From: Pelosinus fermentans JBW45
GTDB taxonomy: Bacteria; Bacillota; Negativicutes; DSM-13327
Assembly (NCBI RefSeq): GCF_000271665.2
Contig: NZ_CP010978.1
Coordinates: forward strand, 652,501-716,500
Direction of reading: 5' to 3'
DNA: 64,000 nucleotides
The notes beneath the pieces are model-generated. The model did no database searches. It was not told the origin of the DNA and worked only from the letters and a program-made list of their open reading frames with translations. The position numbers and the translations under genes are program-made. Each line of letters starts with the position of its first letter. Positions within the stretch are counted from its first letter, which is position 1. Below are positions 2,950 through 46,608 of the stretch, one piece after another.

Positions 2950-3657
2950 GTGGATGAAAAAGATACACGTCTAGGTTATAATCAATGTACATTAGGTACC
3001 GAAACGGGACCGCAAACTATCATCGTTCGCCAGGTAATCGGCGCGGCTGAAGAGCAAAAGGTATTGGATATTCATGTAGTTGTACCAGATAGAAAACCAG
3101 CTATTGAGCAAATTGTAGATGTTTTTGTCAAAGATGTATGTATCGATTGTGTTGATGTTATTCATAATAAAGTAATTGTACGCGGGGAATTTGAAATTAA
3201 AGCGATCTATGTTGCATATTTGCCTGACCAACCAGTGCATGCTGTTGAAATTAGGCATTTTAAATGGACTCAGGATATTGAAATCCCTGGCGCACGTAGG
3301 GGTATGGATGCAGATGCAAATGTTATTGTAGAATTTGTCGATTATGATGTAGATTGTCACAGTCGTGCCTACAAGTACAAATATGGTGATTATGATAATT
3401 GCAATGATGGTAATTGCAACGATCACCACCATCACCATGACGATTGTGATGATGATTGTGACGATGATTGTGATGATCATTGTGATGATCATCATGATGA
3501 TGATTGTGATGACCACCACCATCACCATCATCACAGATGGACTCGAGATTTTGATGTATCTGTAGTGCTTAAAATTGTTGCCAAAGTTATGGCTGATCGC
3601 CAAGTGCAAATCGGCGGCAATGCAACGATGCCTATGCCTACTCAACCTAAAGGATGA
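2950..3657 (+). CDS. SPOCS/DUF3794 domain protein with Asp/His/Cys-rich insert
   Basis: A 235-residue protein starting with GTG after an eight-G tract. Residues 20-135 are a SPOCS (DUF3794) domain, as in SipL and other spore-coat morphogenesis proteins, recognisable by VxVPDxKPxIEQIxDVxVKDV and the later VRGEFEIKAIYVA. From about residue 138 to 197 there is a low-complexity run of Asp, His, Cys, Asn and Lys/Tyr ending in seven consecutive His, after which SPOCS-like sequence resumes (WTRDFDVSVVLKIVAKV). The insert therefore splits the end of the domain. It looks like a metal-binding segment. The next gene is a paralogue, so this pair arose by tandem duplication. Confidence 0.8.
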   Translation: MDEKDTRLGYNQCTLGTETGPQTIIVRQVIGAAEEQKVLDIHVVVPDRKPAIEQIVDVFVKDVCIDCVDVIHNKVIVRGEFEIKAIYVAYLPDQPVHAVEIRHFKWTQDIEIPGARRGMDADANVIVEFVDYDVDCHSRAYKYKYGDYDNCNDGNCNDHHHHHDDCDDDCDDDCDDHCDDHHDDDCDDHHHHHHHRWTRDFDVSVVLKIVAKVMADRQVQIGGNATMPMPTQPKG

Positions 3658-39907: not shown

Positions 39908-40029
39908 AAATGTTTTACCTTATCCTATCTTTTCTGGTGTGTCTGGTGTGATTTGATTGCTTTTACATATTTTAAAGAAATTGTCAGTAATTTTCTTGTT
40001 ATTTATTATGGTAAAATAGTAAAATAATC

Positions 40030-40059
40030 TTGCTTTTTCTCTGTAATGACTGGTATAAT
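40030..40059 (+). promoter_or_regulatory. Promoter of the ilv-leu operon
   Basis: TTGCTT, 18-base spacer, TATAAT. It predicts a leader of about 490 bases before ilvH. Confidence 0.65.
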
Positions 40060-40171
40060 GGCTTAAAATGTTACACATGGGTAGCTACGTGAAACAATTT
40101 TGTCTTTCTGTGAAGGTCATTTTCCTTATTTGTTCATGTTGCAGGTTCATATTTACTGAAGGAGGACTTGT

Positions 40172-40211
40172 ATGCATTGGAATGAGAATGCTTAAACTAA
40201 GTATAATCTGA
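40172..40211 (+). CDS. Possible leader micro-ORFs
   Basis: A strong binding site GGAGG (40161-40165) precedes ATG 40172, which opens a 7-codon frame MHWNENA (40172-40195). An overlapping frame at 40182 reads MRMLKLSII (to 40211), ending in Leu and Ile codons as in branched-chain leader peptides, but its own binding site is poor. The sequence shows the frames; translation is uncertain. Confidence 0.3.
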
Positions 40212-40328
40212 TGTGTAATCGCCAATAGAAAAGGTGACCGGTGGAAAGATTTGAGTATGTAGCCGATTGGTCTTGGCAATAGGGTAACGTTGTCGTTTGA
40301 AGTGTAAAAAAAGTTACAACGTCGTAAC

Positions 40329-40435
40329 GAGAAAGAGTATCTAGGGTTCCGCTGTAAAAAGGACTGGACCGAGCGATACAAATGCGCGTATGCGGATTAC
40401 ACCGTGAGTATAAAAGACTCTGCGGAAATTTTCTC
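40329..40435 (+). ncRNA. ykkC-family riboswitch aptamer, probable ppGpp class (2a)
   Basis: CTAGGGTTCCGC (40341-40352), GGACTGGACCGAGCG (40361-40375) and ACACCGTGAGTATAAAAGAC (from 40399) follow the core of ykkC RNAs in order and spacing. A closing helix GAGAAA (40329-40334)/TTTCTC (40430-40435) frames it. The family has guanidine, ppGpp, PRPP and other classes. The ppGpp class is known to sit before branched-chain amino acid genes, which is exactly this context; PRPP is less likely and guanidine unlikely. Ligand assignment is from context. Confidence 0.82.
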
Positions 40436-40472
40436 ACTGCTGAAGCCTGTCGTATACATGATTGTTTCAGCA

Positions 40473-40529
40473 AAGAATAGACAAATCTATTCTTATAGTG
40501 GGAACCTTTCGGTGGTTTTTTTGTTTTTA
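40473..40529 (+). terminator. Putative expression platform / attenuator of the riboswitch
   Basis: AAGAATAGA/TCTATTCTT is a perfect 9-bp hairpin (40473-40494). It is followed by GGAACC-TTTCGGT-GGTT and a long T-tract (40515-40529), 15 bases before the ilvH binding site. GGAACC (40501-40506) is complementary to GGTTCC inside the aptamer core (40345-40350), giving a possible switch. The final stem is weak on its own. Confidence 0.55.
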
Positions 40530-40556
40530 CTAAGCAATAAAATGGAGGTGGATGGA

Positions 40557-41102
40557 ATGGGTCATCATACAATCTCAATTTTAGTACTGAATCAATCGGG
40601 GGTATTGGTACGAGTAGCTGGAATGTTTTCTCGCCGAGGGTTTAATATTGAAAGTTTAGCTGTAGGTACTACTCATGTTCCAGAATACTCGCGTATTACA
40701 GCGGTCATGCAAGGGAGTGACGCGATTGTAGCGCAGGTAGTGAAGCAATTAGAAAAATTGGTAGAAGTAAGGGCCGTAGAGATCCTGCCTGTTAATACTG
40801 CAGTCGTAAGAGACATGGCGATGATAAAAGTCAAGGCGGAGCAAGAAAAGAAGTTAGAAGTTTTGCAGCTGGCAGAAACTTTTGGAGCCAAGGTCGTGGA
40901 TATTTCAAATGAGACTTTAATGGTAGAAATAACTAGTGGGAAAACCAATACGGATGCATTAATTAATGCTTTATCATCCTATGGAATTTTAGAAATGATT
41001 CGTACAGGTGTTGTTGGTCTGCAACGGGGTGACTGTAGTATCTATGAAAAAGAAAAATGTGAAATTAGTGATTTATTCGATGCAACTCTGGCCAAGGTAT
41101 AA
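40557..41102 (+). CDS. ilvH: Acetolactate synthase small (regulatory) subunit
   Basis: 181 residues. N-terminal ACT domain (HTISILVLNQSGVLVRVAGMFSRRGFNIESLAVG), which binds valine for feedback control, and the C-terminal ALS small-subunit domain (LLQLAETFGAKVVDIS-like region, YGILEMIRTGVVGLQRG). ATG 40557 with GGAGGTG 6 bases upstream. The open frame back to 40404 runs through the riboswitch and is not coding. The catalytic subunit is encoded last in the operon, four genes away. Confidence 0.95.
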   Translation: MGHHTISILVLNQSGVLVRVAGMFSRRGFNIESLAVGTTHVPEYSRITAVMQGSDAIVAQVVKQLEKLVEVRAVEILPVNTAVVRDMAMIKVKAEQEKKLEVLQLAETFGAKVVDISNETLMVEITSGKTNTDALINALSSYGILEMIRTGVVGLQRGDCSIYEKEKCEISDLFDATLAKV

Positions 41103-41181: not shown

Positions 41182-42198
<1,017 letters not shown>

Positions 42199-42216: not shown

Positions 42217-43743
42217 ATGGAACGCAGAATTAAGATTTTTGATACCACACTACGTGATGGTGAGCAGACGCCTGGCGTATGTTTGGATATGCATGAAAAA
42301 CTGGAAATTGCCCGAAGTCTGGTTAAATTAAATGTGGATATTATTGAAGCGGGTTTTCCTATTGCTTCTCCAGGGGATTTTAAAGGTGTCAGTCAAATTG
42401 CAGAATGTATAAAAGGCCCTGTAATTGCAGGCTTATCAAGAGCCAATAAAAAAGATATTGATGCCGTGGTGGAAGCTTTGAAGAAGGCTGAGCGTCCTCG
42501 GGTTCATACGTTTATAGCAACGAGTGATATTCACATGGAATATAAATTGAAAATGTCCCGGGATCAGGTCTTGGCGGCTACAGAGGAATCGGTTCGCTAT
42601 GCGAAACAATTTATCGAGGATATTGAATTTTCCGCGGAAGATGCTTCTCGGTCAGACTGGGGTTTTCTCTGCCAAGTATATGGCAAAGCCATTGCAGCAG
42701 GTGCAACGGTTATTAATGTGCCAGATACAGTCGGGTATACAACACCTGATGAATACGGTGCCTTAATTCGTCATTTACGGGAACATGTGCCTGGTATTGA
42801 TAAGGTCGATATTAGTGTTCATTGTCACAATGATTTAGGATTGGCTGTGGCCAATTCTCTGGCTGCTGTGCAAGCTGGTGCTAACCAAGTGGAGTGCACG
42901 ATCAATGGATTGGGTGAACGAGCTGGAAATGCTGCATTGGAAGAGTTGATTATGGCCTTTTATACTCGCCGTGATTACTATAAAGTAACCACTGGCATTG
43001 ATACAAAACAAATTTATCGTGCCTCTACGCAAGTGAGTGCATTAACAGGTGTGGATGTGCAAATTAATAAGGCAATAGTTGGTGATAATGCTTTTGCTCA
43101 CGAGTCTGGCATACATCAACACGGTGTTATGAATAACTCGCTAACCTATGAAATTATTTCTCCTGAAGTGATTGGCATGAGTCGTAATTCCATTGTGTTG
43201 GGGAAACATTCCGGCAGACATGCTTTTGAAGATCGTCTAAAGCAGCTGGATTATAATTTGGACAGCGAAACAGTTAATATGCTGTTTGCCAAATTTAAAG
43301 ACTTGGCGGATCGCAAAAAAGTGGTGTTTGATCAGGATATTGTAGCCTTGATTATTGACAAACCTTCTGTTCATCCTGCCTGGTATCGTTTAGTTTCTTA
43401 TCAAGTCGTGAGCGGCGGCAGTGCAAATGCTGCAACAGCTTCTGTGCGATTAGAGACAAGTAATGGTATCACGGAAGAGGCAAGCTGCGGTGATGGTCCG
43501 GTAGATGCAGTATTTAAGGCGATTGAACAGGCGGTAGGTTTTGCTATTGGTTTAAAAGATTATCAATTAAAAGCCATTACTGCTGGCGAAGATGCTTTGG
43601 GGGAATCGACTGTATGGATCGAGTATAACGACGCTGTATATAATGGACGAGGTTTAAGTACAGATGTGATTGAAGCAAGCGCCAGAGCGTATATTAATGC
43701 GATTAATAAACGATTGACAGCATGTGGTTATCCCGAGGCTTAA
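42217..43743 (+). CDS. leuA: 2-Isopropylmalate synthase
   Basis: 508 residues. Condenses acetyl-CoA and 2-ketoisovalerate. N-terminal TIM barrel with [14 protein letters not shown] and metal residues in [22 protein letters not shown]; linker [14 protein letters not shown]-terminal regulatory LeuA domain (about 390-505) for leucine feedback. AGAGGTGTTGGT before the ATG, 18 bases after ilvC. Confidence 0.96.
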
Positions 43744-43833: not shown

Positions 43834-44910
43834 ATGATGAGTGAGAAACGAATTGTTGTGATCCCTGGTGATGGTATTGGGGAAGAAATAACAACAGCTG
43901 CTGTCTGTATACTAAAAAAAGCAGCAGGTAAGAGTGGAATACAATTACATGTTGAGCGTCATTTGGCTGGCGGCGCGGCCATCGATGCTTATGGTCTTCC
44001 TCTGCCTGATAGTACCATCCAGGCAGCGAAGAAGGCAGATGCCATACTGCTTGGAGCTGTTGGCGGTCCTAAGTGGGATCAGGTTGCTCCGGAAATTCGA
44101 GCGGAAAAAGCGATTTTAGGATTGCGCAAAGAGTTGGGGCTATATGCGAACCTGCGGCCCATCCGTGTAGCAGAAGCATTAATTGAATTTTCCCCCTTAA
44201 AACCAGAGGCAATTTCTGGTGTGGATATTTTATTAGTACGAGAATTAAATGGCGGTATTTATTATGGCACGAAAAATGAAGCGGCAGTGGTAAACGGTGT
44301 GGAGCAAGCATCGGATCTAGAAATATATAGCACTCCTGAAGTGGAGCGGATTGTAAAGCTGGCCTGCCAGGCAGCTCAATTACGGCGCAAACAGGTAGTA
44401 TCTGTAGATAAAGCCAATGTCTTGGCTTCCTCACGTTTATGGCGTAAAACAGCGCAAAAGACTGCCGCACAGTATCCTGATGTCAATTTGAGTCACCTTT
44501 ATGTTGATAATTGTGCTATGCAGTTAATTTTGGCACCAAAGCAGTTTGACGTAATTGTAACTAACAACCTGTTTGGCGATATATTAAGTGATGAAGCGGC
44601 TGTTCTTACAGGATCTATTGGCATGCTGCCGTCGGCTAGTCTGGGCGATGGTACGGGCTTGTATGAACCGATCCATGGTTCGGCTCCTGACATCGCAGGT
44701 AAGGGCTTGGCCAATCCGGTGGGGACCATCTTATCCGCCGCCATGCTTCTTCGTTACTCATTAGGTGCCGAAGAAGCAGCGGCAGCAATTGAAAAAGCCG
44801 TGGATCAAGTCTTGGTTCAAGGATATCGTACAGCCGATTTGTATAAACCTGGTTCAACTAAAGTTTCAACGGAAGAAATAACGAGTTTGATTGAGAAACA
44901 ACTTGGTTAA
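43834..44910 (+). CDS. leuB: 3-Isopropylmalate dehydrogenase
   Basis: 358 residues. Oxidatively decarboxylates 3-isopropylmalate. VIPGDGIGEEI, LGAVGGPKWDQ, RELNGGIYYG, and the NAD/metal region NLFGDILSDEAAVLTGSIGMLPSASLG and EPIHGSAPDIAGKGLANP. AAGGAG precedes ATG 43834/43837. leuC and leuD, which normally stand between leuA and leuB, are absent; the 90-base gap has only a CTGCAG-based hairpin. Confidence 0.96.
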   Translation: MMSEKRIVVIPGDGIGEEITTAAVCILKKAAGKSGIQLHVERHLAGGAAIDAYGLPLPDSTIQAAKKADAILLGAVGGPKWDQVAPEIRAEKAILGLRKELGLYANLRPIRVAEALIEFSPLKPEAISGVDILLVRELNGGIYYGTKNEAAVVNGVEQASDLEIYSTPEVERIVKLACQAAQLRRKQVVSVDKANVLASSRLWRKTAQKTAAQYPDVNLSHLYVDNCAMQLILAPKQFDVIVTNNLFGDILSDEAAVLTGSIGMLPSASLGDGTGLYEPIHGSAPDIAGKGLANPVGTILSAAMLLRYSLGAEEAAAAIEKAVDQVLVQGYRTADLYKPGSTKVSTEEITSLIEKQLG

Positions 44911-44934
44911 CATCTTCGTTAGGAGGTGACTTGT

Positions 44935-46608
44935 ATGAAGATATCTGGTGCCCAGGGGATCATAGAATGTTTATTAGAGCAAGGAGTCGATACGGTTTTT
45001 GGTTATCCTGGAGGACGTATTCTGCCCCTGTATGATGCGATATATGAAGGAAAGATACGCCACATCCTTACGGTGCATGAACAAGGGGCTATCCATGCGG
45101 CAGATGGTTATGCCCGTGCTAGCGGCAAGGTAGGAGTTTGTATCGCCACCAGCGGTCCGGGAGCTACCAACTTAGTAACTGGTCTTGCGAATGCCTATTT
45201 GGATTCAGTACCCTTAGTTGTTATCACGGGTCAAGTTTCTACAGATCTAATTGGTGCTGATGCATTTCAAGAAGTGGACATCACTGGGATTACGATGCCG
45301 ATAACGAAACATAATTTTCTAGTTAAAGATGCTGCAACCTTACCGGAAATCATGCGTTTTGCTTTTCGGATTGCCTCTTCAGGACGTCCGGGGCCCGTAC
45401 TGATTGATATACCCAGTGATATTCAAACAAATCTGTTTACCTTCACCAAAGAAGAAGATCAGGAAAAAAACAAACCTAAATTGCAATGGGAATTATCAGA
45501 ACTGGGAAGTTCGCTGATCGATAAGGCGGTAGCAGTGCTGGAATCAGCAAAACAGCCTGTAATGATCGTTGGCGGCGGTGTAGTTTCATCTGGGGCTTAT
45601 GAACAGGTTGTTGCATTAGCTGAAAAGATGAATGCTCCTGTTGTGAGCACTCTGATGGGACTGGGATCATTTTCTTCAGAACATCCATTATTCTTAGGCT
45701 TGACAGGGATGCACGGACATAAAAGAGCCAATCTTGCCGTTCATGGTGCTGATGTGGTAATCGCCATCGGCAGCCGCTTCAATGATCGGGTAACAGGCAA
45801 TAAGTTCAAATATGCAGAAGGAAAATCGCTCATTCACATTGATGTAGATCCTGCCGAATTGGATAAGAATGTTTCCACCCATATTCCTCTGGCGGGAGAT
45901 GTGAAGCAATTGGTAACTACACTGCACGAGCGGATGAAGCCTCTTAATCCCTGTCCATGGTGGAAGGTGATCCAGGAATGGAAACAAGAATTTGCAGCAA
46001 AACCGGATGGAAATGATCTTTCAGCCACATGGATGCTAAGGCAAGTAGCTGAAAGAACAAAGGGAAAACCATTCATTTTTGCGACAGATGTAGGGCAGCA
46101 TCAAATGTGGGCGGCTCAGAATCTCCACATCGAGTCCCCTCGTTCTTGGATTACTTCTGGCGGCTTAGGTACGATGGGATTTGGTCTTCCTGCTGCTATT
46201 GGCGCTCAGGTAGCCATGCCGACGAAGCGGGTGATCGCCATTGTCGGTGATGGGGGCATAAAAATGACAGGCTGTGAACTCTTTACCGCAGCGAGTCAGG
46301 GATTGCCTTTGATTACGATTATTGTGGATAACAGTTCTTTGGGAATGGTGCGTCAATTACAACAGCTGTTTTATAAACAGCGGTATTCGGAGTCTTTATT
46401 GCCGGTGCCGATGGATTTTGTCTGCTTTGCAAAAGCCTTTGGCATTGAAGGTACATTGACTACGACGCAAGAAGAATTCTTAGCAGCATTTTCCGCTGCA
46501 GTGGAGAGCAACTGTCCTCGGGTGATTATCGTCAAAATCCCTACAGAACAGATCGTTACCCCCATGCTGAAACCAAATTCACCACTGGATACATTTATGG
46601 ATATATAG
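44935..46608 (+). CDS. ilvB: Acetolactate synthase large (catalytic) subunit
   Basis: 557 residues. ThDP enzyme making acetolactate. Catalytic Glu in TVHEQGAIHAADGYARA near residue 47, FAD/central domain, and the C-terminal ThDP motif GDGGIKMTGCELFTAA...N near 440. ATG 44935 has AGGAGGTG 6 bases upstream; the GTG at 44926 is inside that site. Last in the operon, so ilvB and ilvH flank it. ilvD is not present. Confidence 0.95.
   Translation: MKISGAQGIIECLLEQGVDTVFGYPGGRILPLYDAIYEGKIRHILTVHEQGAIHAADGYARASGKVGVCIATSGPGATNLVTGLANAYLDSVPLVVITGQVSTDLIGADAFQEVDITGITMPITKHNFLVKDAATLPEIMRFAFRIASSGRPGPVLIDIPSDIQTNLFTFTKEEDQEKNKPKLQWELSELGSSLIDKAVAVLESAKQPVMIVGGGVVSSGAYEQVVALAEKMNAPVVSTLMGLGSFSSEHPLFLGLTGMHGHKRANLAVHGADVVIAIGSRFNDRVTGNKFKYAEGKSLIHIDVDPAELDKNVSTHIPLAGDVKQLVTTLHERMKPLNPCPWWKVIQEWKQEFAAKPDGNDLSATWMLRQVAERTKGKPFIFATDVGQHQMWAAQNLHIESPRSWITSGGLGTMGFGLPAAIGAQVAMPTKRVIAIVGDGGIKMTGCELFTAASQGLPLITIIVDNSSLGMVRQLQQLFYKQRYSESLLPVPMDFVCFAKAFGIEGTLTTTQEEFLAAFSAAVESNCPRVIIVKIPTEQIVTPMLKPNSPLDTFMDI

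Follow-up and report, generated by a model that had tools for sequence, protein, structure and literature searches.

Riboswitches of the ykkC family are told apart by a few diagnostic bases. Guanidine-I aptamers carry A46, PRPP aptamers have a pyrimidine together with G96, and ppGpp aptamers have a pyrimidine without G96 and use C75 to pair with the guanine of the ligand (PMC6031431, PMC5912903, PMC10687018). PRPP aptamers closely resemble ppGpp aptamers, and changing one base is enough to convert the specificity (PMC6031431). In the published crystal structure, G104 and G105 contact the 5'-phosphates of the ligand (the 5'-beta-phosphate). A ppGpp riboswitch placed in tandem with a T-box acts as an AND gate (PMC5912903).

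Here we describe a leader RNA from Pelosinus fermentans JBW45, located in a stretch of 64,000 nucleotides that was analysed as a whole (hereafter the window). An initial annotation had proposed a ykkC-family RNA, probably ppGpp-sensing, in front of ilvH-ilvC-leuA-leuB-ilvB. The three ykkC motifs on which this proposal was built are present in the claimed order, namely CTAGGGTTCCGC (40341-40352), GGACTGGACCGAGCG (40361-40375) and ACACCG...AAAAGAC (40399-40418), and the aptamer indeed lies between a conserved promoter and the operon, on the same strand (Table 1). The RNA begins a few bases before the originally given 40329, because the P0 flank is part of it. Diagnostic bases, covariation in P0, class-specific model scores and gene context all back the assignment to the ppGpp class (ykkC subtype 2a), which makes the leader of the ilv-leu operon a well-supported further member of a known riboswitch class. 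Both the identity of the ligand, ppGpp, and the sense in which the switch responds are inferred from the behaviour of that class. Altogether, the element is very probably a singlet ppGpp riboswitch that works as an ON switch by transcription antitermination.

Table 1. Features of the ilv-leu leader and operon (window coordinates).
Feature	Position	Strand	Evidence
Probable promoter, TTGCTT, 18-base spacer, TATAAT, with TGG in front (TTGCTT-18-TGGTATAAT)	40030-40059	+	Conservation
Long 5' leader upstream of aptamer	40060-40324	+	No known RNA family
Small hairpin GUUAC-AACGUC-GUAAC directly 5' of P0	40313-40328	+	6/6 aligned genomes including G007; forms in local fold
ppGpp-class (ykkC subtype 2a) aptamer	40325-40443	+	Weak RF00442 match, independent 2a model, fold, covariation, diagnostic bases
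Aptamer P0	40329-40334/40430-40435	+	Fold
Aptamer P1	40337-40341/40375-40379	+	Fold
Aptamer core CUAGGGUUCCG	40341-40351	+	
Aptamer J3-4, ACACC	40399-40403	+	
Aptamer P4	40403-40424	+	
Intrinsic terminator	40413-40522	+	Fold of 40403-40520, -39.5 kcal/mol; same layout in relatives
Terminator 5' arm (aptamer P4' and P0' strands)	40413-40438	+	
Two hairpins enclosed by terminator	about 40439-40470, 40473-40493	+	
Terminator 3' arm	40497-40515	+	
Terminator U-tract	40516-40522	+	
ilvH ribosome binding site, GGAGG	40544-40548	+	Sequence
ilvH, acetolactate synthase small subunit	40557-41102	+	NCBIfam TIGR00119, 170.6 bits, above cut-off
ilvC, ketol-acid reductoisomerase	41194-42198	+	NCBIfam TIGR00465 and NF004017, above cut-off
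leuA, 2-isopropylmalate synthase	42217-43743	+	NCBIfam TIGR00973, 729.8 bits, above cut-off
leuB, 3-isopropylmalate dehydrogenase	43834-44910	+	NCBIfam TIGR00169, 500.5 bits, above cut-off
ilvB, acetolactate synthase large subunit	44926-46608	+	NCBIfam TIGR00118, 699.4 bits, above cut-off

At curated cut-offs, Rfam returned no match anywhere in the window. A sensitive scan (451 bases, 4227 families) gave a single credible hit, a full-length match to the guanidine-I family RF00442 at 40330-40427, with 44.8 bits and an E-value of 6.6e-7 against a family cut-off of 63 bits. Other subtype-2 members are likewise weakly matched by this model, and no dedicated 2a family was among the Rfam matches to the window aptamer. 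A mir-2068 match at 40150 in the sensitive scan was dismissed as chance. The 5.38-Mb single-contig genome contains five ykkC RNAs, including the window copy (E 1.8e-6). Two of them are true guanidine-I RNAs, scoring 86-89 bits; L004 is a PRPP-type tandem of a guanine and a ykkC aptamer ahead of a purine-permease-like gene, and L003, the glt-type copy of the genome, precedes a glutamate-synthase-like operon (both genes named from sequence). The window copy, L003 and L004 all fall under the Rfam cut-off, as expected for non-guanidine members. Membership of the guanidine-I class was rejected for the window copy on account of this low score and the replacement of A46 by C.

The bases that discriminate between the classes were compared across subtype-2 loci, comprising 80 gathered by DNA pattern from named genomes plus copies from same-family genomes, a subset of which was labelled by downstream gene. 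In the window aptamer, position 49 (the A46 site of guanidine-I) is C40374, C75 (C40400) and C77 are kept, and an alignment anchored on the downstream GCGG leaves position 96 empty, as a gap between 40421 and 40422. All 13 parsed purine-context aptamers combine G96 with U at position 49. Aptamers of ilv, leu and glt context have C at position 49, with G96 in none of those placed in an alignment (A3), which excludes three ilv-labelled loci (L066, L075 and L086) with a different or unparsed 3' strand.

The bases expected at the ligand phosphates are less typical. The window aptamer has U at 104 (U40429) and at 105 and A at 7, with A5 and G6 kept, in a numbering obtained by counting positions relative to C75 and G96 rather than from the crystal sequence itself. 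G104 and G105 are common in the class, most relatives having at least one G, and are not a published discriminator. G104 is also absent in L255, and A7 occurs in several glt-type aptamers of other families, so that positions 104 and 7 evidently vary within the class. Twenty-four sequences hinted at covariation between U7 and G104, but this pair was dropped because A7 coexists with G104 in other genera. We read U104, U105 and A7 as tolerated variation that may lower affinity; an effect on which ligand is chosen is improbable. One could instead envisage that the 5'-phosphate pocket of a 2a aptamer has been remodelled, so that it recognizes a guanosine nucleotide other than ppGpp (for example pGpp) or binds ppGpp weakly, since both bases touch the 5'-beta-phosphate and five congeners, under strong conservation elsewhere, have U at 104 as well as at 105; the variation seen elsewhere in the class and the retention of C75, C77, A5 and G6 make such a derivative unlikely. 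There is only a slim chance that the ilv-type aptamer of the genus, having lost both phosphate-holding guanines, senses a different guanosine alarmone (e.g., pGpp), with the glt-type copy of the genome keeping the ppGpp pocket. The altered bases offer a natural test of the weight of the phosphate contact in ppGpp binding.

The ppGpp class is also favored by covariance models. A 2a model built from 21 amino-acid-context sequences, with the window and its orthologues left out, gave 40325-40443 a score of 91.2 bits (E about 5e-26) compared with 77.9 bits for a PRPP-type model of 18 sequences; the E-values of these custom models are rough and it is the order of the bit scores that counts. This order is reversed for the genome's own PRPP-type aptamer, which scores 65.5 bits on the 2a model and 95.1 on the PRPP model. 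Given that the two aptamers are closely similar and differ in specificity by a single-base switch (PMC6031431), and that the PRPP model still recognizes the window sequence, one might suspect a PRPP (subtype 2b) riboswitch placed ahead of amino-acid genes. This is very improbable, because G96 is missing, position 49 is C and not U, the 2a model is better by 13 bits, the operon is of branched-chain instead of purine context, and the genome has a separate PRPP-type tandem in L004. The NUDIX/HAD context of the nucleoside-diphosphate riboswitch (ykkC 2c) is not matched by ilvH-ilvC-leuA-leuB-ilvB either.

When folded alone, 40326-40440 is predicted to form P0, P1, P2, P3 and P4. Across 24 aligned sequences, pairing is found in 93% of cells, both-side changes occur in 67 cells compared with 24 in shuffles, and P0 shows both-side changes in 6 of its 7 pairs; when the partners are shifted by 1-3 columns, pairing falls to 30-53%. 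Comparison of the window with four congeners gave 98-99% identity for the aptamer, against 76-81% at ilvH third codon positions and 78-91% in the 5' leader, indicating that the aptamer is under constraint. In a further genome of the same genus, G007, the long leader is mostly absent and the aptamer core is damaged, scoring 47.5 bits on the 2a model: its ilvH leader (L210, 1340-1456) retains terminator and flanks, with an altered core (CTAAGGTCTG; C75 to U), reflecting either decay or changed specificity. In four other members of the family (G006, G008, G001 and G002), the sequence inspected ahead of ilvH contains no recognizable switch (L211 and L213 were also scanned with the models). That the window carries a decaying relic with a constitutive terminator, as the damaged core in G007 and the missing element in these four genomes might hint, is scarcely credible in view of the near-identity among congeners relative to ilvH third codon positions and of the intact state of every canonical helix.

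The aptamer is followed by an intrinsic terminator, which is predicted to exclude a closed aptamer P4/P0. The same plan is found in Sporomusa ovata, in a Selenomonadales genome, at two loci of a Negativicutes genome and in the glt copy of JBW45 itself, and relatives outside the genus build their terminators from aptamer 3' strands. The initial annotation had favored a direct switch in which GGAACC near the T-tract pairs with GGUUCC in the aptamer core. Both halves are present (40501-40506 and 40345-40350), but the pairing is unsupported: in G007 both halves are changed, and the pairing between the terminator and the 3' side of the aptamer is kept and even improved (U-G to U-A). In the minimum-energy structure of the full-length RNA, the terminator arm pairs with the 5' half of the aptamer, and since this structure uses the region in question, the GGAACC/GGUUCC alternative is weakened, no more.

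We propose that RNA polymerase, starting at the conserved promoter, would first transcribe the aptamer. With ppGpp bound, P4 and P0 would be held closed, their 3' strands would be unavailable to the terminator, and transcription would read through into ilvH-ilvC-leuA-leuB-ilvB. Without ligand, the 3' arm would capture the P4' and P0' strands, the terminator would form before the U-tract, and the operon would be off. A rise in the starvation alarmone would most likely induce the synthesis of valine, leucine and isoleucine through this switch. The genome encodes a RelA/SpoT-type enzyme, and also two CodY proteins. A CodY box was considered and set aside, as the single three-mismatch match nearby (39979-39993) is uninformative: the window holds 8 such matches where chance alone predicts 7.7.

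The promoter call rests on conservation, because a simple consensus scan did not list it; each of the six aligned genomes of the genus retains it, and it can be recognized in G001. Between promoter and aptamer, the long leader matched no Rfam family even at E-values as high as 10, and the small hairpin at its end could stack on P0. The leader also holds a seven-codon frame, MHWNENA (40172-40195), with a strong ribosome site, which keeps its length in several congeners and is absent in G007. Attenuation by a leader peptide was rejected, as this is the only short frame with a ribosome site noticed and it has no Leu, Ile or Val codons.

T-boxes (RF00230) were absent from the window at the family cut-off and from the leader at E up to 10, which disposes of a T-box hidden in the long leader. 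Elsewhere in Negativicutes, 7 of 9 comparable leaders have a T-box behind the ppGpp switch (L081, L090, L094, L120, L248, L255 and L258, those of L081 and L090 scoring slightly below the T-box cut-off), and two (L101 and L119) have none. In the JBW45 genome, T-boxes precede a second ilvBH, a second leuA and ilvD, as well as valS, leuS and ileS. Judged from these positions, the branched-chain pathway seems to be split between two sensors, with the ppGpp switch on ilvH-ilvC-leuA-leuB-ilvB and T-boxes on the second ilvBH, the second leuA and ilvD. The T-box at L018 (2-1462; G000:C1 near 2865649) lies ahead of an isoleucyl-tRNA synthetase whose next-best models are of the MupA/MupB type; as L014 appears to be another such case, T-boxes may control two ileS genes in this genome.

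Several further ykkC-type loci were noted in the collection. In G001 (C124), L058 (1650-1777) is a subtype-2-like RNA before an MFS-transporter-like gene that scores 77.6 bits on the 2a model and carries CCCCAGCGG as well as G at position 49 (CCGAGGG), both this base and the context being unusual. L059 (1515-1653; G006:C1 near 1401731) is a second, weak tandem of a guanine-aptamer-like and a ykkC RNA (34.4 bits in Rfam, 71.5 on the PRPP model), followed by a gene whose start resembles xanthine phosphoribosyltransferase. In Sporomusa ovata, L094 contains another 2a-type aptamer (3322-3441), which has a terminator to itself and precedes a gene resembling phenylacetate-CoA ligase; the ilvH leader that carries the ppGpp and T-box tandem follows about 2 kb downstream.

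Among described systems, the guanidine-I riboswitch (RF00442) shares the P1-P2-P3 scaffold with the window RNA and is the sole Rfam family matched, but its binding A is C in the window, and the score lies under the cut-off in contrast to the 86-89 bits of the genome's true copies. With the PRPP riboswitch 2b, the window RNA has in common the overall fold, P0 and a pyrimidine at position 49; it differs in lacking G96, in having C rather than U at position 49, in gene context and in its lower score. The closest counterpart is the ppGpp riboswitch 2a (Sherlock, Sudarsan and Breaker 2018; PMC5912903, PMC6031431, PMC10687018), with which it shares the scaffold, P0, pyrimidine 49, C75, the missing G96, the branched-chain gene context and a terminator that reuses aptamer 3' strands. 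It departs from this class by U at 104 and 105, by A at 7 and by the two extra hairpins enclosed in its terminator. The terminator layout is that published for ON switches of the ppGpp and PRPP classes. In one more lineage, the switch would directly couple the synthesis of branched-chain amino acids to the stringent response. Compared with the AND gate of ppGpp riboswitch and T-box (PMC5912903), which Sporomusa and other relatives carry with the same aptamer class on the same gene family, the window switch is a singlet and the T-boxes of the genome sit on other branched-chain genes. Many relatives stack the ppGpp switch and the T-box in one leader, whereas this genome appears to separate the two sensors.
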